Below, piece after piece: positions 20,943 to 55,057 of a DNA stretch of 64,000 nt. Location: IMG/VR virus record IMGVR_UViG_3300036792_000218, positions 28,370 to 92,369 of that record; one strand, written 5' to 3'. The stretch is from a virus. The notes below the pieces were generated by a model. The model was given only the letters and a program-made list of their open reading frames with translations. It was not told the DNA's origin and did not search any database. How positions within the stretch are numbered: position 1 is the first letter of the stretch; each line of letters opens with the position of its first letter. The position numbers and the translations under genes were made by a program.

Positions 20943-20990
20943 CTTACGGAGACAACATTATCCGTTCATAATAATGTCGTCAACTTATTC
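20943..20990 (-). promoter_or_regulatory. P-family promoter P1
   Basis: On the minus strand, -35 TTGACG (20978-20983) and -10 TAATGT (20955-20960) are exactly 17 bp apart. TGTCTCCGTAAGC follows. It is the first of eight matching promoters. The -10/-35 region contains a GACAAC...GTTGTC-type dyad, here degenerate on the -35 side. Confidence 0.8.
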
Positions 20991-22494
20991 AGGGCGTGTC
21001 GGCGAACCCTTCCCCGTCCTCTCCGGTCCCGGCGGCGGCCTCGGCGGCGGTGCGGGCTGCGACCTCGGCGGCGTCCACGGCGGCGGCCTCGGCGACCGCT
21101 TCGGCCTTGGCCCGCACGGCGTCGACTACGGCCTGCTCGCACGGCGCCAGGTCGTATCCCCACCCGGCGAGCGCAGTCAGGTACTCAGCCGATGCGCGCT
21201 GCGGGGTGCGCCACGTCATGGTGTCGGCGGTCAGCCACTCGCACGCCCCTATCACCAGCGCGAAGGTGACCAGGTGGGCGCGCTGCTCGGACGCCCCGGT
21301 GAGGCTGTCGGCGAGCGGTGACTTGTAGTCGCCGTAGCCGCTGTAGCCGCTGTCGGCCTCGATGCCGCCGAGCAGGGCCCGCGCGGTCTTGTGCCTGCCG
21401 CCGCTCATGCTGGTGAACGACCGGATCAGGTAGCTGTCCGCCGCGGCGAGCGCCTTGACGGTGAACAGGGCGGCACCCGCGGGCAGGTCCTTGCCGTGCA
21501 GCAGCACGTCTGTCAGCCACCGCTGGCGGACGGTCGTCGCGGACCGCCAGGCGCTGTTACCCTCGCGTACCCGCCTCTTGTCCTCGGGTGACGTCTCGGG
21601 CTGCCCGCTGTCGTGGCGCTTCTTGTGGCCGTTGGCCTTCGGGTCGGTGCAGTACCACGACTCGTCGACGTACCTGTTGTCGCCGTGGCCCATCACGTAC
21701 AGGACAACTACGTTGCCCGGGCAGTCCTTGTGGCTTGCGGGGTCGAGCCGGTTCCCGTCAGTGTCCACCCAGTAATTCAGCCCGTTCTCGTAGTGGATTG
21801 CGTCGTCGCTGACCTTGATGCCCTGCCCGTCCAGCTCGGCGGCTCGGGCGGCCTTCATGGCCCGCTCGGTGCGCTTGTCGCGGCACTGCTGAACCTGGTG
21901 GTCGAACTGGCCGGGCTGGTCGACGGCGGTCACGGCGAGGTGCTTGGCGATCGCGGGCTCGTCGTCGAACTCGGCGATCGCCGCGGCCTGGAGCATGTCG
22001 AGCGGGTACTGGTGGGCCAGGGTGCGCGCGGTGTCGGAGGCGTGAGTCTTGCGGGCGGCGGCGATCTCGGTCCGCTCGTAGCCGGTCATTTTCTTGACCG
22101 TGACGGCGTTCGCGCCGAGGTCGAATAGCTGGGCGACGGCGGCGGCGCGGTCGGCCGTGGTCAGGCCCTCGCGGTTCTCGTTCTCGTCCCATTGCTCGAG
22201 GATCCGCGCGATCTCCGCTTCTGTGGTTCCGGCGGTGCCCTCGACGACGACGGCCGGGACCTGGCATCCGACCTCGATGCAGGCCAGCCGGCGGCGTGCC
22301 CCGAACCGCAAGACGAGTTCGCCGTCCGGGGTCCGGAGGACGCCGATCGGCTGCCGGACCCAGTTCGCGCGGATGGAGTCGATGAGTTCCTTGCTGGGCT
22401 GCGCGTCGCGGATGTTGCCCACGACGGTGATCGCCGCGGGGTCGAGCACTTCGAGCGTCATCGCGGGTGTCTTCACTGATGCGGTCTTCGGCAT
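20989..22494 (-). CDS. ParB/Srx-like domain protein
   Basis: The 501-residue protein has an N-terminal ParB/Srx nuclease-like domain (about residues 18-100: NIRDAQPSKELIDSI, then LRFGARRRLACIEVG with the GxRR motif). A helical HTH-like segment follows (about 115-165, ANAVTVKKMTGYERTEIAAA). A Trp/Tyr-rich middle region and a long Ala-rich C-terminal tail come next. Plasmids, phages and integrative elements of actinobacteria carry such proteins. The role could be partition, transcription control or CTP-dependent clamp loading. No ParA gene is seen nearby, which argues against a standard ParAB system. It is the last gene of the P2 unit. Confidence 0.75.
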   Translation of the reverse strand: MPKTASVKTPAMTLEVLDPAAITVVGNIRDAQPSKELIDSIRANWVRQPIGVLRTPDGELVLRFGARRRLACIEVGCQVPAVVVEGTAGTTEAEIARILEQWDENENREGLTTADRAAAVAQLFDLGANAVTVKKMTGYERTEIAAARKTHASDTARTLAHQYPLDMLQAAAIAEFDDEPAIAKHLAVTAVDQPGQFDHQVQQCRDKRTERAMKAARAAELDGQGIKVSDDAIHYENGLNYWVDTDGNRLDPASHKDCPGNVVVLYVMGHGDNRYVDESWYCTDPKANGHKKRHDSGQPETSPEDKRRVREGNSAWRSATTVRQRWLTDVLLHGKDLPAGAALFTVKALAAADSYLIRSFTSMSGGRHKTARALLGGIEADSGYSGYGDYKSPLADSLTGASEQRAHLVTFALVIGACEWLTADTMTWRTPQRASAEYLTALAGWGYDLAPCEQAVVDAVRAKAEAVAEAAAVDAAEVAARTAAEAAAGTGEDGEGFADTP

Positions 22495-46369: not shown

Positions 46370-47575
46370 TTAGATCAAGCCCATCCGCCAGGCCAGGCCG
46401 CGCAGGTCCCGGCCGCCGGCCTTTCTCCGCGCCTCGTCGAGCATGCTCCGCACCAGCTCCCGCAGCAGGGGACTGTTCAGCACCTGCGCCGGGGAAAGGT
46501 GCTCGGCCCGCTTCAGCGCCGCGGCGGCGCGCCCGTCTTTCCCCTGCATGGCGAACGCCCGCCCCTGCTCCATCAGCAGCGCGCCCCGCCGGTTGTTCGA
46601 CGCGAGCGCACGCGGCTCGACCTGGGACGCGTGCTCAAGCGCCCGCTCCGCGTTCCCGGCCTCAACCGACAGCGACGTGCGCCACACCCCGACGTTGCTC
46701 GCGCCGAACAGCTCCCACGCGTCGGGCTCGTCGCCGAGCGGTGCGGCGATCCTCGCGGCCTCCGCCCCGTGGTCATCGGCCCCCGCGTGGTCGCCGCTGA
46801 CCGCGCAGGCCAGCGCCGCGCTCAGCCTGAGCATCCCGTAGACCTCCATGGCCATGCGGGACTGCCCGGCCAGCGGCTCGAACCTGTCGGCCGCGTCCGG
46901 CATCGTCATCAGGGCACGGGGCTTGTTCGTCGAGCTCCGGGCGTGCGCCATGCCGTACGCGGCCGCCGCCTCCCAAACCGGGTCACCGAGCAGCGCCGCG
47001 GCCTGCCTGCCCCGCTCCGCGGCAACCCACGCCAGGTCCGGCTGTGCCGCGTACCGCAGCGTGATCACGGCGGTGGCGGTGGCGGGGACGAGCAGCCGTA
47101 GTGCTTCCTCCCGGTCGTGGCCGTTCGCCGTGCCCGCCTGCACCTCAAGCTCGCCGATCAGCGTGGGGAGGATCGGCAGGAGCGCGGCATAGTCCGACCA
47201 GCGCAGCGCCCGGTCCGCCTGGTCGTTCAGGTCCCGCAGAAAGGGGACCGGCCGCGCGGCGATGTCCGGCGGGTCGTCGGGGGACGCGTCGAGCAGCGCG
47301 GCGCGGAGCGGGTTCAGGGGCCACGCGTCGCGGCCGGCCTGCACTTCAGGGGCGGGCTCGCCGAGCAGCGTGTCCGCGCTGACGTCCAGCACCCCGGCCA
47401 GGGCGGCGATGTCGGCGCGCTTGTCAAGCGGTATGCGCCCGTTCTCGACCTTCGACAGCCAGCCTTCGGAATGCCCGACAAGGCCCGAGGCCTGCGCCAG
47501 CGTCAGGCCTTTCGCGCGGCGTGCCATCCTGACGGCCAGCCCTATGCTGACGCGATCCGTGCTAATCTCGTTCAT
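46370..47575 (-). CDS. XRE-family regulator with TPR-like C-terminal region
   Basis: From ATG 47575 the 401-residue protein has an N-terminal XRE HTH (about 8-60: IGLAVRMARRAKGLTLAQAS, GLVGHSEGWLSKVENGRI). A long helical repeat region follows (about 120-395) typical of Streptomyces XRE-TPR regulators (LAWVAAERGRQAAALLGDPV, GNAERALEHASQVEPRALAS). Such proteins often sense peptides or regulate nearby mobile genes. Both neighbouring leftward genes have their own terminators, so it is a single-gene unit. Confidence 0.75.
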   Translation of the reverse strand: MNEISTDRVSIGLAVRMARRAKGLTLAQASGLVGHSEGWLSKVENGRIPLDKRADIAALAGVLDVSADTLLGEPAPEVQAGRDAWPLNPLRAALLDASPDDPPDIAARPVPFLRDLNDQADRALRWSDYAALLPILPTLIGELEVQAGTANGHDREEALRLLVPATATAVITLRYAAQPDLAWVAAERGRQAAALLGDPVWEAAAAYGMAHARSSTNKPRALMTMPDAADRFEPLAGQSRMAMEVYGMLRLSAALACAVSGDHAGADDHGAEAARIAAPLGDEPDAWELFGASNVGVWRTSLSVEAGNAERALEHASQVEPRALASNNRRGALLMEQGRAFAMQGKDGRAAAALKRAEHLSPAQVLNSPLLRELVRSMLDEARRKAGGRDLRGLAWRMGLI

Positions 47576-47668
47576 CGAAAGACCCCGACGTTTTGAGTGA
47601 AAGCTTCGCAACTCTCACGATAACCGCCGGGGTCTAGTCATGTGTAATTCGTGATGATCTCGTCACAC

Positions 47669-47732: not shown

Positions 47733-48221
47733 TCACGCCCCGCGTACCACGGCGGCGTCCACGGGCAGCCCGAGCGCCTTGCGGACCCGCAGCGCGACGG
47801 TAACCGCGCCGTCAAGGGTCCCCGACGTGACTGCCAGCAGGAGCGTGACCGCGCCGCCCTCGCCGTCCTCCACGGTCCCGCTCGGAACCGCCGGCTCGTC
47901 CCTCGTCGCCGCGGCCAGGCCGGCGTGCAGCGACGTGAGCGTGATGCCCTCAGGCGCGGGGTAGCTGGCGAACTCGACGCGCCACGCCCGCCGGGCAAGC
48001 ACGTACGTTCCCCGTTTAGGCACCAGGCGGACTAGTCCCTCGTCGGCCAGCAGCCGCACGCCTTCCTGAACGGTCCCGAGCGCGACCGACGCGTACGTGC
48101 GCCGGAATTCCTTCACCAGTTCCGTACCGGGCGGCAGCATGCCGTCTTCGTCGAAATCACCGGCGATCACCTTCCGCCGCAGCTCCCGCGCTATCAGTTC
48201 ATGCAGGGCGGGACCTGACAC
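47733..48221 (-). CDS. GntR-family repressor, KorSA-like
   Basis: I chose the GTG at 48221 because GGGGAAAGAG lies six bases upstream; a GTG at 48248 would add nine residues. The 162-residue protein has a GntR winged helix (about 1-72: LHELIARELRRKVIAGDFDE, ELVKEFRRTYASVALGTVQE, LLADEGLVRLVPKRGTYVL). A short C-terminal domain follows. It is divergent from the operon that includes the TraB-like translocase, as KorSA is from the transfer genes of pSAM2. It most likely represses that operon and itself at the palindrome at 48334. Confidence 0.8.
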   Translation of the reverse strand: MSGPALHELIARELRRKVIAGDFDEDGMLPPGTELVKEFRRTYASVALGTVQEGVRLLADEGLVRLVPKRGTYVLARRAWRVEFASYPAPEGITLTSLHAGLAAATRDEPAVPSGTVEDGEGGAVTLLLAVTSGTLDGAVTVALRVRKALGLPVDAAVVRGA

Positions 48222-48296
48222 GCGGCTCTTTCCCCGTTTCGCTCGCACAGTGTTCCGCCAATCGTAGGGCCGCCTTCTCCGGATCAGAAGCACGGG

Positions 48297-49568: not shown

Positions 49569-50182
49569 GCACCGAACCGGAGTACATGAGCCGCACCGAC
49601 CGGGAACGCTGGCAGGCCGCCCGCACCTTGACCGACGTCGGCAACCTCATGGCCGACTGGATACAGGGCAAGATCACCACCCGGCCCGGCTACTACGGCC
49701 CCACCGACCTCGACCAGCCGGACACCCTCGTCCCGCTGCTCGCCAGCCTGTGCCGGGACGGGTTCGTCACGCACCAGTCGCAGGAAGGCTTTTCCGGGTG
49801 GGGCTACGACGGCGCGTGGTGGGTCCAGCACGCTTTCGTGGAGGCGTTCACCACCGAGGACGTCGTTGACCGCCTCTACGAGACCGCGTCGTCCCGCCTG
49901 ATCGTCATCAGCCACGACCCGGCCACACTGCCCGCCTGGCGCTACCGGCGAGACAGCGACTTCACCGCCACCTACCGCATAGGCCGCCCCTACACCGGCG
50001 CCGGCAGCTCACTGCCCCGCCGTCACATCCGCGACCCCCACATCGGGTTCGGGGCGTGCGGCAAGGAGGCCACCGACGCGCTGTGCTCCGCATGGCAGGT
50101 CACGGTCGCCGACCTCGCGCCAGGACCCGAGACGTTCCTGTGGGACTTCCTGTCCGGCCTCGACCTGGAGCCAGGCGAATGA
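49565..50182 (+). CDS. DUF6919-like protein
   Basis: The 205-residue protein contains ERWQAARTLTDVGNLMADWI, KITTRPGYYGPTDLDQPDTL and RDGFVTHQSQEGFSGWGYDG. The succession of an early Trp, PGYYGP and QSQEGF is the signature I associate with DUF6919 proteins of Streptomyces plasmids and integrative elements. The function is unknown. It overlaps the membrane protein upstream and the TraB-like gene downstream. Confidence 0.65.
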   Translation: MSTEPEYMSRTDRERWQAARTLTDVGNLMADWIQGKITTRPGYYGPTDLDQPDTLVPLLASLCRDGFVTHQSQEGFSGWGYDGAWWVQHAFVEAFTTEDVVDRLYETASSRLIVISHDPATLPAWRYRRDSDFTATYRIGRPYTGAGSSLPRRHIRDPHIGFGACGKEATDALCSAWQVTVADLAPGPETFLWDFLSGLDLEPGE

Positions 50183-52632
50183 GCGTGATCCCCGCGCCGC
50201 GCCGTGGCCGCCGGCCCCGTCCCGCCGGTGACGACGACACGCCGCCGCTGAGCGACGCGATCGAGCGACTGCTGCCCGGTGACCCCGAGCCCCCGGCCGA
50301 CCCGCCCGCAGAGCCCGCCGACGCCGAGCCCAGCCCCGGCACAGGGCAGGAGGAGCCAGCCGCGCCCGCCGCGGACGACGACGACCCGCCCGAGCCGAAA
50401 CCCGGCCGCCCCGGACTCGAAGAAGCGCAGCGCGCCGCGATCATCCCCGGTATCCCCGGCCAGCGCTGGCAGGCCGTCAAGGACAGCCTCGAACTCGCCG
50501 GCTACCGGACGGCGTTCCACGGCATACGCGCCGTGCCCGTGTACGCGCCCGGCTCGCTCGTCTACGCGGTCCGCGGCGGCGCCCGCCTCGGCCTCCGCTA
50601 CGCGCTGTGGATGGACGTCACGCACCTGCGGGTCGTCATCTCGCAGTCCCTGGCCCGCGGCGACGCCGGAAACGGCGACGTGCTCCGCGCCCACAACGAC
50701 AGGGAACGCACCAAGAAGGGAAACCGGAAACTCGCCGCCGGGACCGCCGCCACCGCCGCCCTCACGTCCTACGTGCTGGCGGAGGGAACCCCGCCGGCAG
50801 TCCAGATCGGCGCGGCCGCCGCCGCGTTCCTCACCCTGGTCGCGTTCGGGAAGCCGGACGGCAGCCCGTTCCTGCCGAGGGCGATCCTGCCCCCGAACTA
50901 CCAGCCCCCGAGCTTCGAGCTGATCCGCGAGGCGCTGGTAGCGATCATCCCGGCCATCAAGACGCACGTCGCCGCGAAGGGTGACCTTGACTGGGTCAGC
51001 GACGTGCACCGCGACGGCGACGGTTGGGCCGTCGAGCTCGACCTGCCCAAGGGCGTCACGGCTGAGCTGATCATTAAGAAGCGCAAGGAACTGTCCTCCG
51101 CGCTCCGCCGGCCACTCAGCGCCGTGTGGCCCGAGGGCGTGCCCGGCGAGCACGAGGGGCGCCTGTTCATCTGGATCGGCCGGCATGACTGGGCGAAAAA
51201 AAAGCTCGTCCCGCACCCGCTGCTCAAGGCCGGCACCCCCGACTTCTTCGACCTGGTCCCGTTCGGCACGATGCCACGCGGCAACGCGATCACCGTCCCG
51301 CTTTTCCAGACGAACTGGCTGTTCGGCGGGGCCATGGGCTCCGGCAAGACCAGCGCCATCCGGACCCTGCTCGCCGCCGCCGCGCTCGACACCGTCGTCG
51401 ACCTGTGGACCCACGAGTTCAGCGGCAAGGGCGACCTTGAGCCGTACGCCCAGGTCAGCTACCGCTACGTGTCCGGCCTGGATGACGAGGCGATCGCCTA
51501 CGCCGCCGAGTCCGTCAAGATGCTCAAGGCCGAGCTGCAGCGCCGCCAGGCGATATGGAAGAAGATCCCGCGCGAGAAGCGAACCGAAGCGCACCTGACC
51601 CGCGAGATCGCGATGGCCGACAAGCGGCTGCGGCCCATCGTCGCGTCGTTTGACGAGTGCCATAACGCGTTCCAGCACCCGACGTACGGCAAGCAGATCC
51701 AGACCGACCTTGAGTGGGTCATGCGGATCGGCCGGGCGTACGGCATCGTCGTCATCCTCGGCACCCAGCGGCCCGGCGCGGACTCGATCCCGGTCATCAT
51801 CACCGCCGTCACCGTGGCCCGCTGCTGCCTGAAGGTCAGCGACCACACGACCAACGACATGATCCTCGGCAGCGGCTCGTACAACAAGGGCCACGACGCC
51901 ACCGTGTTCCGCCTGCCGTACACGGACGCGGGCTGCTGCTGGCTCAAGGGCGTCGGCGACACGATCGCCCCGAAGATTTATTATCTCAACGATCCCGCGA
52001 CGCTGAAGATCGCGAACCGGGCCCGCGCGCTGCGGGAGAAGGCCGGGGTCCTGTCCGGGTACGCGCTCGGTGAGGAAGAGGACCAGGGCGAGCGGAACCT
52101 GCTCGGCGACGTCCACGCGGTGTTCGGGCCCGGTGAGCGGTTCCTGTACTGGCCGACGATCGCCGAGCGGCTCGCGGAGGGCTACCGGGGGACGTACACG
52201 GGCGTCACCGGTGACGGCGTGTCGGCCGACGTCCGCGAGCTCGCAGACATCGACTCCGACAACGGCCGGGAACCGGGCGGCAAGGTCCTCACCGGCCTGA
52301 AGCGCACCACGATCTCGCTCGCCGTCAACGGCGGCCCGGACGACCCCGACCAGGAAGCCGGCGACGACCCGCCCGCGCCCCCGCGGCCCGAGGCGGACAC
52401 CGAGCTGCTGACCGCCGCGGCGGAGATGGTCATCAGGGAGCAGTGGGCGTCAACGTCGACCCTCGGGCGCAAGCTCCGCCTCGGCCACGACCGCGCCGGC
52501 ACGCTCATGGACGAGCTCGCGGGCCACGGCGTCGTCGGCGAGCCGGGCGACGACCCGAAGGTGCGCGCCGTGCTGAAGACCGAAGACGACCTCGATGCCG
52601 TACTCGAGGCGATCAGGGGCGCGGACTCATGA
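50179..52632 (+). CDS. TraB/FtsK-type DNA translocase
   Basis: The 817-residue protein has a Pro/Asp-rich N-terminus and a hydrophobic membrane region (about 175-220). An alpha domain precedes the motor. The motor shows Walker A GGAMGSGKTS (Lys390) and Walker B RPIVASFDE (Asp492, Glu493), then an RQxP-like VVILGTQRPGAD. A C-terminal winged helix lies at about 739-817 (LLTAAAEMVIREQWASTSTL, GHDRAGTLMDELAGHGVVGE), as in FtsK-gamma and TraB DNA-recognition domains. Such hexameric pumps move double-stranded DNA; in Streptomyces plasmids TraB alone drives conjugation. A repeat-rich candidate recognition locus follows directly. Confidence 0.9.
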   Translation: MSVIPAPRRGRRPRPAGDDDTPPLSDAIERLLPGDPEPPADPPAEPADAEPSPGTGQEEPAAPAADDDDPPEPKPGRPGLEEAQRAAIIPGIPGQRWQAVKDSLELAGYRTAFHGIRAVPVYAPGSLVYAVRGGARLGLRYALWMDVTHLRVVISQSLARGDAGNGDVLRAHNDRERTKKGNRKLAAGTAATAALTSYVLAEGTPPAVQIGAAAAAFLTLVAFGKPDGSPFLPRAILPPNYQPPSFELIREALVAIIPAIKTHVAAKGDLDWVSDVHRDGDGWAVELDLPKGVTAELIIKKRKELSSALRRPLSAVWPEGVPGEHEGRLFIWIGRHDWAKKKLVPHPLLKAGTPDFFDLVPFGTMPRGNAITVPLFQTNWLFGGAMGSGKTSAIRTLLAAAALDTVVDLWTHEFSGKGDLEPYAQVSYRYVSGLDDEAIAYAAESVKMLKAELQRRQAIWKKIPREKRTEAHLTREIAMADKRLRPIVASFDECHNAFQHPTYGKQIQTDLEWVMRIGRAYGIVVILGTQRPGADSIPVIITAVTVARCCLKVSDHTTNDMILGSGSYNKGHDATVFRLPYTDAGCCWLKGVGDTIAPKIYYLNDPATLKIANRARALREKAGVLSGYALGEEEDQGERNLLGDVHAVFGPGERFLYWPTIAERLAEGYRGTYTGVTGDGVSADVRELADIDSDNGREPGGKVLTGLKRTTISLAVNGGPDDPDQEAGDDPPAPPRPEADTELLTAAAEMVIREQWASTSTLGRKLRLGHDRAGTLMDELAGHGVVGEPGDDPKVRAVLKTEDDLDAVLEAIRGADS

Positions 52633-52657
52633 TGTTGCGCACCCGCCGCGAGCCACG

Positions 52658-52799
52658 CAACAGCCCAACAACGTGTTGGGCTAGCACAACACGCGCTGAC
52701 CTGCGGAAACGTCAGATTGTCCGATTCAGCGCAACACGGCCGAGGGCCGCACAACACCAGCACAACACGCTGACCTGCGGAAACACGGTTCGCGCAACA
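52658..52799. other. Candidate clt locus: seven CAACA-core repeats after the TraB-like gene
   Basis: CAACA motifs, mostly in GCACAACAC or GCGCAACAC context, occur at 52658, 52666, 52687, 52732, 52752, 52763 and 52795. AGCCCAACA (52662-52670) and TGTTGGGCT (52674-52682) form a 9-bp inverted repeat. A 17-bp direct repeat, CGCTGACCTGCGGAAAC, occurs at 52694-52710 and 52768-52784. The region 52633-52857 is non-coding. Streptomyces TraB proteins load at short direct repeats near the end of traB, so this position fits a cis-acting transfer locus. Confidence 0.6.
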
Positions 52800-52857
52800 A
52801 ACCGGCGGAACGGGCCCCCACGGGCCGCCCTAGGGACAACCACGATGGGACAGGGGC

Positions 52858-53434
52858 TTGAGCCGGATCACAGTCAGCGTCTGGCGCTGTGGCGGGTGCG
52901 GGAAGAAACGCGGGCTGCGCCACACCTGCCCGGGCGGCCGCGGCCGCAGGACACGCGACCGCATCGCGCTCGGCGTAGAGGTCCGCTGCCCGCACTGCCG
53001 CAAGCGGTCACTGAACCCGCTCACCCACACCTGCTCACCGAAGTCCGACTTCCGCAAGCGCCAGGCCGCCCACAAGCGCCGGGTCGCAGCCGAGAAACGC
53101 AAGCAGAAACGGAAGCTGTCCGCCGCACGGAAACGGGCCCGCGTCAAGGAACGCAGGCGCCTGGCAGCGGAGAAGCGCAAGCAGGCAGCGGCTGCGGCCG
53201 CAGCGAAGCGGAAGGCCGGGGCCCGCGCCCGGTCACACGACAAGACCCGGCACGACCCCGAGACCTGCACGGACCCCTACTGCACGAGCTTCCGCTGCCG
53301 CACCTACAAGGGCGGCAAGGAAGCCGGCAAGGCCGAGGGCCGCGCCGAGGGCTATGCGGCGGGCTACGCCGAGGGCTACGACAAGGGCTTCGCCGACGGG
53401 TTCGCCGCCGGGCAGGCCTCCGCGGCCAAGTTAG
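52858..53434 (+). CDS. Zinc-finger, Lys-rich protein with apparently lost stop
   Basis: From TTG 52858 the 191-residue protein has two N-terminal Cys pairs (CGGCGKKRGLRHTC and CPHCRKRSLNPLTHTC). A long Lys/Arg-rich coiled coil (about 65-120) and CTDPYCTSFRC follow. A Gly-x-x-x repeat tail (GKAEGRAEGYAAGYAEGYDK) ends it. The annotated end is a TAG at 53432-53434, one base out of frame. In the actual frame codon TTA at 53431 replaces it and the ribosome would read to 54237. I think a single-base change removed the stop. Nucleic-acid binding is likely. Confidence 0.5.
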
Positions 53435-53443
53435 GAGATCCCA

Positions 53444-53785
53444 GTGAGCGTGATCATCACGATCCTGATCACCGTCCTGATCGCGGTGCCCGCGCACGTG
53501 GCGCTGTTCCTGCTGACGCACCGGCTCATCGCCGCCGCGCTCGCGGTGCCCGCGTACGTGGTGCTGTGCCTGGCGCACCCGGTCCACAAGTGCCCCCGCT
53601 GCCGCGGGGCCAGGGTGGTCAAGAAGGGCAACAGTCACCCCATGTGCCGCTGGTGCAAGGGCCAGGGCAAAACCAAGCGGCTCGGCGGCCACCTGGTCCA
53701 CCGCGTGTTCTGGGACCACGTCGGCCCCTGGATCAGGGACAAGTACCTGGATGCCGCTCACCGGCTGCGGGACGGCCAGTCATGA
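53444..53785 (+). CDS. Membrane protein with DnaJ-type zinc finger
   Basis: GTG 53444 follows TTAGGAGATCCCA. Residues 1-46 form two transmembrane helices (VIITILITVLIAVPAHVALF, IAAALAVPAYVVLCLA). A cytoplasmic CPRCRGARVVKKGNSHPMCR then gives, with a second Cys pair, a Cys-x2-Cys-x-Gly-type zinc finger similar to DnaJ. A basic C-terminal helix completes it. It probably sits at the membrane and binds nucleic acid or protein, a suitable partner for a DNA pump. Confidence 0.6.
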   Translation: MSVIITILITVLIAVPAHVALFLLTHRLIAAALAVPAYVVLCLAHPVHKCPRCRGARVVKKGNSHPMCRWCKGQGKTKRLGGHLVHRVFWDHVGPWIRDKYLDAAHRLRDGQS

Positions 53786-54237
53786 GCGGCGGCAAGTTCG
53801 AGGGCGTCGTCTCGGGCACCTGGTCGACCACGAGCAGCGGGTGGTGGGTAAAGGCCGTGGCCGCCGTCGCCGTCGTGGGCGCGCTGGACGGGTACCTGTG
53901 GACCCTCCTGCGGTTCCTCGCCGTGCTGCTCACCGTGGTCCTCGTCCTGTTCACCGCGCTGGCGGTACCCGCGGCCGTCTGGATGCGCCGGTGGACCAGC
54001 CGCCAGCACCAGCAGTTCAACCGGCAGCTCGCCGCGCTCCCCGACGAGCCGCGCCAGGCCGTCAAGGCAGCCGCGCCGCCCGTGATCCAGAACTTCTACG
54101 GCGGAACCAACGTGTTCATGCTGCCCGGATCACAGCTCCCGGCCGGAATCAGCGAGAACAGCCAGGTCATCCGGGCTTACCCGCTCCGCGACGCCGTCAC
54201 CGACACCACGGAGGGAGGTCCACGCCATGAGAACTGA
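53782..54237 (+). CDS. Two-span membrane protein of the transfer-type operon
   Basis: The 151-residue protein begins MSGGKFEGVVSGTWSTTSS. Two hydrophobic stretches follow (about 22-40 and 45-68: VKAVAAVAVVGALDGYLWTL, FLAVLLTVVLVLFTALAVPA). A soluble C-terminal part ends AYPLRDAVTDTTEGGPRHEN. It overlaps the previous gene by four bases and the next by 11. No family is recognised; membrane-anchored accessory function is inferred. Confidence 0.5.
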   Translation: MSGGKFEGVVSGTWSTTSSGWWVKAVAAVAVVGALDGYLWTLLRFLAVLLTVVLVLFTALAVPAAVWMRRWTSRQHQQFNRQLAALPDEPRQAVKAAAPPVIQNFYGGTNVFMLPGSQLPAGISENSQVIRAYPLRDAVTDTTEGGPRHEN

Positions 54238-54337
54238 CGACTGCGGCGCCTGCGGAGGATCGGGCACCGAACCGAACCCGTACTTCCCGCAGAAGACACG
54301 CCCGTGCGGCACCTGCCACGGCAGCGGCTGCAAGTAG
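54227..54337 (+). CDS. 36-residue double CxxCxGxG zinc finger
   Basis: ATG 54227 is preceded by GGAGGGAGGTCCACGCC. The peptide reads CGACGGSG and, 18 residues later, CGTCHGSG, exactly the DnaJ-type Cys-x2-Cys-x-Gly-x-Gly pair. Two such motifs can bind one zinc ion, so this is a minimal DnaJ-like finger. It ends at TAG 54335-54337 and is followed by the first of two repeated spacer elements. Confidence 0.6.
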   Translation: MRTDDCGACGGSGTEPNPYFPQKTRPCGTCHGSGCK

Positions 54338-54340
54338 GAA

Positions 54341-54433
54341 CTGACGGCCCCGAGGGCGGCCAGCGCACGCACTGGCCGCCCGACCGGGCAATCAGCACCA
54401 GGGGCAAGCCCGGCCCCACCGAACAGGAGGAAA
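54341..54433 (+). repeat. Repeated intercistronic element, copy 1
   Basis: This spacer and the one at 54643-54738 are near-identical over about 90 bases. Each begins CTGACGGCCCCGAGGGCGGC, continues with an ACTGGCCGCC complement, then GACCGGGCAATCAGCAC and a second GCCCGGCCCC arm, and ends in AACAGGAGGAA. They can form two hairpins and supply the ribosome-binding site of the next gene. Confidence 0.7.
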
Positions 54434-54439
54434 CGAGAA

Positions 54440-54646
54440 ATGGGATTTTTCAAACGCAGCGCGCCGGAACCGGCCCCCACCGAGACGCGCGGCCAGCGCG
54501 AGCAGCGCGACGCCCGCGAGGCGATCGTCAAGGACCTGACCAAGAACATCCATGACCGCAACCGCGCGGCACAGGTCCGGGCCCTGCCCGGCGGCGAGGA
54601 GATGGTCGCCGAAGCGGTCAGGCGCTCGGCCAACTGGTGTTCCTGA
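54440..54646 (+). CDS. Small charged protein between repeat elements
   Basis: The 68 residues (MGFFKRSAPEPAPTETRGQR...) form a charged helix with EQRDAREAIVKDLTKNIHDR and a C-terminal Cys. The gene is flanked by two copies of the repeated spacer and has a strong AACAGGAGGAAAC ribosome-binding site, so translation should be efficient. The function is unknown. Confidence 0.5.
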   Translation: MGFFKRSAPEPAPTETRGQREQRDAREAIVKDLTKNIHDRNRAAQVRALPGGEEMVAEAVRRSANWCS

Positions 54647-54738
54647 CGGCCCCGAGGGCGGCCAGCACCACACCGGGACTGGCCGCCTGACCGGGCAATC
54701 AGCACAGGGGCACGCCCGGCCCCAGCCAACAGGAGGAA
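54643..54738 (+). repeat. Repeated intercistronic element, copy 2
   Basis: Second copy of the element at 54341, with the same CTGACGGCCCCGAGGGCGGC start, GACCGGGCAATCAGCAC core and AACAGGAGGAA end. A shorter relative at 55053-55102 shares CTGACGGC and the GGCCGCCCGGC/GCCGGGCGGCC hairpin. Confidence 0.7.
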
Positions 54739-54742
54739 CCAC

Positions 54743-55057
54743 ATGGCACTACCACCGATGACACCCGAGCAGCGCGCCGACGCCCGGCTGAAGGCCGCCG
54801 CTACGCGCGGGGAACGCGCCGAGGTCAGGCGGCGCCTCAAGCGCGGGGAACTGACCCTGGCCCAGGTCCTCGCCGACGCCGCCACCAGCGACGTCATCGG
54901 CAAGATGAAGGCCTCCGCGCTGCTGGAAGCGCTCCCCGGTATCGGGAAGGTCCGCGCGCGGCAGCTCATGGGCCAGATCGGCATCGCGGAGAACCGTCGC
55001 GTCCGCGGCCTGGGCGCCGGCCAGCGCAACGCGCTCGAGGCCGCGGTCACCGCCTGA
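54743..55057 (+). CDS. mIHF/sIHF-type integration host factor homologue
   Basis: The 104-residue protein matches actinobacterial mIHF over its whole length. LPPMTPEQRADARLKAAATR is followed by a long helix with RAEVRRRLKRGELTLAQVLA, then VIGKMKASALLEALPGIGKV, RARQLMGQIGIAENRRVRGL and GAGQRN. The helix-two-turn-helix with LPGxGKVRARQ is the DNA-bending motif. Host mIHF is essential for L5-type integration and organises chromosomes. An element-encoded copy could compact element DNA, assist integrase or support the transfer locus. It follows copy 2 of the repeated spacer. Confidence 0.9.
   Translation: MALPPMTPEQRADARLKAAATRGERAEVRRRLKRGELTLAQVLADAATSDVIGKMKASALLEALPGIGKVRARQLMGQIGIAENRRVRGLGAGQRNALEAAVTA

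Follow-up and report, generated by a model that had tools for sequence, protein, structure and literature searches.

The 225-b non-coding spacer that directly follows a traB-like gene in a tailed phage genome is likely the clt of the FtsK/SpoIIIE-type DNA translocase encoded upstream of it. This assignment rests on comparison only: the position of the repeats, the repeats themselves, their conservation and the co-variation of spacer box and TraB wing among relatives are shown, and binding and transfer are inferred. The window analysed here is a stretch of 64,000 nucleotides from a viral record of 92,369 b in IMG/VR, and all coordinates are those of the window unless the record is named.

The spacer (52633-52857) holds eight GCNCAACA half-sites and two copies of a constant element. 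The CAACA core lies on the plus strand at 52658, 52666, 52687, 52732, 52752, 52763 and 52795, seven copies within 142 b, and on the minus strand at 52674 and 52633. A 9-bp inverted repeat, AGCCCAACA (52662-52670) and TGTTGGGCT (52674-52682), makes up a 21-b palindromic box, AGCCCAACA-ACG-TGTTGGGCT (52662-52682), with equivalents in the related contigs L247 (CAACA-ATC-TGTTG) and L246 (CGACA-TC-TGTCG). The other half-sites are GCGCAACA on the minus strand (52633-52640), abutting the traB stop codon, and, on the plus strand, GCACAACAC (52684-52692, 52749-52757 and 52760-52768), GCGCAACAC (52729-52737) and again GCGCAACA (52792-52799). The first GCACAACAC copy overlaps GCTAGCAC (52680-52687), the third-box sequence in many relatives. 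The nine CAACA copies fall within 170 b; the biggest cluster elsewhere in the window has four, and the maximum per 170 b in 300 second-order Markov copies of the window was five. Over the whole window the motif is only slightly in excess (67 observed, 55.8 expected). The wider unit GCNCAACA occurs eight times at the locus and four times in the remainder of the 64 kb; the leftmost 28,370 b of the record have none.

The constant element, CGCTGACCTGCGGAAAC, is an exact 17-b direct repeat on the plus strand (52694-52710 and 52768-52784) that extends to 20 b at 95% identity. Its core, CTGACCTG, matches CTGANCWG. Of 224 loci, 139 have this motif within 200 b of the traB stop codon and 3 have it in the final 200 b of the gene. 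The direct repeat is conserved widely and stands apart from the variable half-sites. The element around CTGACCTG is present in the spacers of most relatives whatever their variable box, sometimes in reversed orientation.

The downstream gene (52858-53445, plus strand) encodes a Cys-rich basic protein, and its TTG start at 52858, on which the non-coding status of the spacer depends, is inferred from homologues located directly 3' of the spacer in L246 and L248. The reading frame stays open to 54237, crossing the frames of two other apparent genes (52858-54237), and the homologues in L246 and L248 stop at 176 aa; a frameshift near 53430 is likely. The sequence-only reading had reported seven CAACA motifs in 142 bp, a 9-bp inverted repeat, a 17-bp direct repeat and a non-coding 225-bp spacer immediately 3' of traB. 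All of these held, the last given the TTG start, but the two minus-strand copies were overlooked, as was the identity of the exact direct repeat as a different, conserved element.

The traB-like gene (50179-52632, plus strand) encodes 817 aa with Pfam matches to FtsK_SpoIIIE (E 5e-4) and FtsK_gamma (E 8.5e-14), and the protein is up to 41% identical to chromosomal relatives and 49-55% identical to those of contigs L246-L248. The C-terminal winged helix of the family, for which Pfam has no named entry, is retained at residues 622-725 (52042-52353, plus strand; hmmsearch E 1.6e-11, hhalign probability 96.9) and is seen in an AlphaFold model. Its wing reads GGKVL--TGLKR, and the NRRG motif of the relatives is lost, as judged from the wing alignment. 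The NCBIfam profile plasmid_TraB (NF041214, cut-off 800) gave no hit to the window protein and 28 bits for the relative L001.

Behind this domain lies an extra FtsK-gamma domain (residues 740-799; 52396-52575, plus strand), which meets the gathering cut-off of PF09397 (51.5 bits against 30.6) and matches PDB entry 2j5p (E 5e-4). The AlphaFold model of the window protein shows gamma as a second winged helix; the model was built from four sequences with a pTM of 0.39, so only its local folds count. The gamma recognition helix, LGHDRAGTLMD, differs from the [VI]GFAKAGRLMD found in 37 of 37 chromosomal copies. The possibility that gamma had been swapped in for the family winged helix was rejected, since the family domain is still detected in the window TraB, and gamma is thus an addition. 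Because the surface of FtsK gamma that contacts XerD is also the one that binds KOPS (PMC5052618), the added domain could serve either purpose.

Gamma was found in only four of about 220 TraB-type loci, namely the window, L246, L247 and L248, and the recognition helices of the other three (VGFADAGSLMD, VDRARAGELMD and VKHAEALDLLD) also differ from the chromosomal form. Within the first 230 b after the stop codon, CAACA occurs nine times in the window, seven times in L247 and four times in L248 (expected 0.13, 0.09 and 0.04). The closest relative, L246 (55% identity), has no CAACA in this interval and six copies of CGACA (0.5 expected). Among loci without gamma, L271 and L267 carry GCGACA arrays and L259 and L268 carry GGAACA-type sites. 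CGACA and a similar wing are common to L246 (ANRKG, with gamma) and L271 (AQRKG, without gamma), a likeness that favours the family winged helix as the reader with modest strength, although L267 breaks this pattern. Four known gamma members are too few to decide whether CAACA or CGACA tracks the wing or the gamma helix.

Seven genomes of the class sample gave a second gamma match as candidate TraB-gamma chimeras, and none proved to be a chimera when the proteins were inspected. Separately, FtsK-gamma was seen at the end of non-FtsK proteins in L075 and L076, where the chromosomal-type GFAKAG recognition helix is kept; the L075 protein reads like a Ser/Thr kinase. A search of cultured phages returned 21 records, mostly the gamma part alone in Gordonia phages, along with weak FtsK matches such as that in Thermobifida phage P1312, and the TraB of L256 had no match among cultured phages. 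A first scan of viral contigs with the window TraB gave eight stretches and no relatives. Scanning IMG/VR for the pattern CAACACG..CTGACCTGCGG returned 12 stretches, two of which (L274 and L277) belong to contigs already known through their TraB (L247 and L248); in the fetched DNA of the other ten there was no traB match, and these may be chance hits.

Relatives of the translocase were collected from a class-wide search (57 of 394 genomes, E <= 1e-30) and from a family search with the relative L021 as query (109 of 297 genomes, E <= 1e-70). These were pooled with plasmid hits, fetched regions and the window, and a traB-type frame ending in a stop codon was obtained from 200 of 201 entries; L101 was left out, its stop codon being absent from its stretch, and one of the 200, L004, is a chromosomal FtsK. 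By inference, most of the chromosomal relatives are probably AICEs. No CAACA cluster was found 3' of traB in the first 35 relative sequences examined. Their spacers instead carry palindromes specific to each element, for example GCTAG-GT-CTAGC, GCTAC-CG-GTAGC or GCTAT-CG-ATAGC, arranged to a common plan: a 12-b palindrome, a second palindrome and a single half-site, then a CTGATCAG- or CTGACCTG-like element, a spaced pair and frequently ACCTGCGAAAACCC. The boxes vary between elements and agree within each.

Of the 200 entries, 154 had at least one GCTWN4WAGC box (up to one mismatch) in the first 130 b and 123 had two or more, with the first and second boxes 22 b apart, equal to two helix turns, in 119 of these 123. 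The 46 entries without the box include the window and the chromosomal FtsK L004; some have a different first base and some have no box at all. Perfect boxes, in counts that take in five loci twice, numbered 267 within 160 spacers and one in 746,519 b outside them. In the L005 stretch, covering 17.7 of the 18.5 kb of the plasmid NBC_00562, GCTATCGATAGC occurs solely at positions +15 and +37, counted from the traB stop codon. Among IMG/VR contigs (L249-L253, L259, L267-L271), other half-sites were observed 3' of traB: GGTAGCGG, GTAAC, GGAACA and GCGACA.

The box was found to co-vary with a single region of TraB. Seven box classes were compared with each of 692 TraB alignment columns over 148 of the 200 entries, after box-less (GCTWN4WAGC) loci and spacer duplicates had been dropped, and the top five columns (L021 positions 669, 670, 671, 675 and 676) all lie in one eight-residue stretch, the wing of the C-terminal winged helix. 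Mutual information was 1.27 for the best wing column versus 0.52 for the best column elsewhere. At column 675, Gly accompanies GCTAG with a non-CG centre (73/78), Phe accompanies GCTAT (4/4), Arg, Gln or Lys accompanies GCTAC-CG (20/20) and Val accompanies GCTAA (14/17). On the 294 branches of a motor-domain tree, box class and column 675 each changed 34 times, 18 of them on a shared branch (p 7.8e-11, rank 1 of 692, with columns 670 and 676 ranking second and third); this test rests on a single parsimony reconstruction.

Simple linkage should affect the downstream gene too, which was therefore used as a control in 137 of the 148 loci, the 11 without a recognisable downstream protein being left out. 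The best of the 84 columns of that protein reached a mutual information of 0.33 (p 0.006), and column 675 reached 1.33 (p 7e-10) in the same loci. Columns of the kind at position 679, fixing the first base, could by construction not score, because box-less loci had been dropped; where Ile or Thr stands in place of the second Arg of NRRG, the box starts with T and not G, in two different backgrounds (L009-L012; L197 and L203).

A held-out check drew on 27 further TraBs from IMG/VR, 13 of which had a 12-b box of this form and 12 an alignable wing. For the first base, the rule that Arg goes with G and any other residue with T held in 12 of 12; for base 5, the rule that Gly goes with G and either Arg or Gln with C held in 9 of 10. 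This check was read by eye, and several of the twelve are similar to the training set. Exceptions to the base-5 code are L029, L091 and the held-out L265, and L163, L171 and L173 have a canonical wing yet no boxes 3' of traB. AlphaFold models the L256 C-terminus (mean pLDDT 80) as a winged helix whose beta hairpin, the wing, holds the co-varying residues. Fold searches went no further than the general winged-helix class (the best Foldseek E was 0.04 and the best VIA Z was 7.0, to 2dt5), with scores below the level that shows kinship.

It is therefore very likely, on the evidence of co-variation and without binding data, that box specificity in the TraB family maps to the wing of the C-terminal winged helix. 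The sequence-only reading had pointed to the C-terminal winged helix by which Streptomyces TraB recognises short repeats, and to one such domain here. This was partly right: the protein has two such domains, the family one and FtsK gamma, and specificity in the family maps to the wing rather than to helix alpha3. The same reading would have been refuted by repeats not conserved in traB-bearing relatives, and here the result was mixed and favourable, the array being kept in all three gamma relatives (as CAACA in two and CGACA in the third) and other half-sites occupying the same place in more distant ones. Its proposal of a candidate clt is supported by comparison, through boxes in the same place and box/wing co-variation, and has no binding or transfer data behind it. 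The code was derived from intact wings and the window wing is without NRR, so it is not directly transferable to the window TraB.

The element itself is a temperate tailed phage and not a Streptomyces plasmid. A survey of phage genes in window positions 1-44000 and record positions 1-28369 (L286 and L287) identified terminase, portal, major head, head-tail adaptor and tape measure genes, and the record also encodes tail fibre, endolysin, integrase, ParB-like and single-strand annealing proteins. A family 2 glycosyltransferase gene lies in the same phage genome (10973-12799, minus strand). The definition of an AICE (integrase, Rep and Tra, without phage structural genes) is not met, the structural genes being present; Rep was not specifically searched. 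The portal of the L248 contig is 63% identical to that of the window record, and in 25 IMG/VR records, comprising the window's own and those of 24 of the 27 held-out loci (L255, L257 and L265 left out), the terminase family was matched by 12 and the portal family by 17. Some of these records are probably predicted prophages and may include an adjoining element.

Known systems offer partial precedents. The clt of the Streptomyces plasmid pWTY27 comprises the tra 3' end and the adjacent non-coding spacer, with a TraA footprint (PMC3583192). Its placement (with a 175-b spacer) and its short direct and inverted repeats resemble the window locus, whereas the repeat there is TGACACC, the host is a plasmid, TraA binding has been shown for pWTY27 only, and no palindromic box/wing code is described in the relevant parts of that paper. 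In pSVH1, whose TraB is likewise FtsK-like, short repeated TRS octamers are read by the C-terminal winged helix (PMC4170104, PMC3583192), with recognition by helix alpha3 there versus the wing by co-variation here. The pSVH1 octamer is GACCCGGA; it was absent from window positions 50,000-55,000. As in FtsK, gamma stands at the C-terminus of a DNA translocase, but in the window it sits behind another winged helix, and its recognition helix differs from all 37 chromosomal copies. A KOPS-like motif is GGGNAGGG, which is absent from the spacer, the actinobacterial KOPS itself being outside this comparison; with a non-chromosomal helix and no GGGNAGGG in the spacer, the definition of a KOPS-reading FtsK is not met. 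AICEs share a traB-like gene with 3' boxes, unlike the window record in lacking phage structural and endolysin genes. A further precedent is the Streptomyces plasmid-phage pZL12, a phage genome with conjugal transfer, cited in PMC3583192. In the literature searched, which excluded most subscription papers, there was no description of the box/wing code or of a TraB with gamma in a phage.

The most serious alternative keeps the spacer as a TraB recognition locus and holds that FtsK-gamma reads GCNCAACA, the older winged helix having lost its reading role. This is possible: the window wing lacks the NRR residues found in most relatives, three of the four gamma TraBs among the roughly 220 examined are followed by CAACA arrays and the fourth by CGACA, and the gamma helix residues of all four depart from the near-invariant chromosomal ones. 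Against it stand the GCGACA sites of L271 and L267 and the GGAACA-type sites of L259 and L268, which exist without gamma, so that gamma is dispensable for ACA-type half-sites, and the CGACA and similar wing shared by L246 and L271. That the family winged helix reads the half-sites through its wing remains the explanation we favour, by a narrow margin.

The other alternatives deny the spacer this role. Under one, the repeats would be an operator for the GntR-type (47733-48293) or XRE-type (46370-47611) regulator of the genes 3' of traB; both regulators are encoded upstream, the palindromic boxes look operator-like and the spacer precedes a same-strand gene run. This is unlikely, given that the box type of relatives follows the TraB wing and not the downstream protein (the regulators were outside the co-variation test), and that boxes are nearly absent outside traB 3' spacers in the DNA compared, which includes 17.7 kb of L005, where a GntR gene is also present. 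Replication-origin iterons of similar form are known in Streptomyces plasmids (PMC3583192), and the repeats, being short and near mobile-element genes, might be such iterons or a partition site, for instance for the ParB-like protein of the same record (20989-22494). We consider this very improbable, as the repeats follow traB, the boxes of relatives at that place co-vary with TraB, the distance to the ParB-like gene is about 30 kb and the repeats have no recognised Rep gene beside them. Chance clustering of a common pentamer, which the near-expected window-wide count of CAACA might suggest, is practically ruled out by the Markov copies and by the recurrence of arrays in L247 and L248.

A clt therefore remains the best explanation, although the lack of binding or transfer data, the altered window wing, the exceptions to the code, the 46 entries without a box of the form sought, the CGACA array of the closest relative L246 and the merely hypothetical status of conjugal transfer by a phage count against it. 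In this mechanism, the C-terminal DNA-binding heads of TraB would bind the GCNCAACA half-sites, a palindromic pair and mostly same-orientation copies, and binding would load the ring-shaped motor onto its own element; the motor would then pump this element, in double-stranded form, into an adjacent cell or hyphal compartment. The added FtsK-gamma may provide another head, one that contacts either DNA or a Xer-type recombinase, and the constant CTGACCTGCGGAAAC element beside the half-sites may be bound by some unidentified factor that is invariant between elements. Binding, loading and transfer, as well as the carry-over of the relatives' rules to a TraB with an altered wing, are inferred. The precedent of pZL12 and the phage genes of the record make it plausible, without transfer data, that the dormant form of the phage is moved by TraB.

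The distinctive features here are the setting in a phage, a TraB with two heads and the half-site, their function being inferred; the general wing code is the wider result. A bolder reading, which we hold tentatively and rate a little below an even chance, is that a group of temperate tailed actinophages carries a Streptomyces-type TraB with its clt, two tandem TraB heads and a residue-to-base code in the family wing. If so, a prophage could pass from hypha to hypha as double-stranded DNA without particles, and a simple, often-switched wing code would let each element label its own DNA. Only for a few plasmids is it known how a TraB pump selects its own DNA, and the comparison offers a testable residue-to-base code for a large TraB family, together with a candidate clt for about 150 elements. 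If the code is true, changing the wing Phe of the L005 TraB to Gly would shift recognition from GCTATCGATAGC to GCTAGGTCTAGC. A further implication is that some phages may spread by conjugation.
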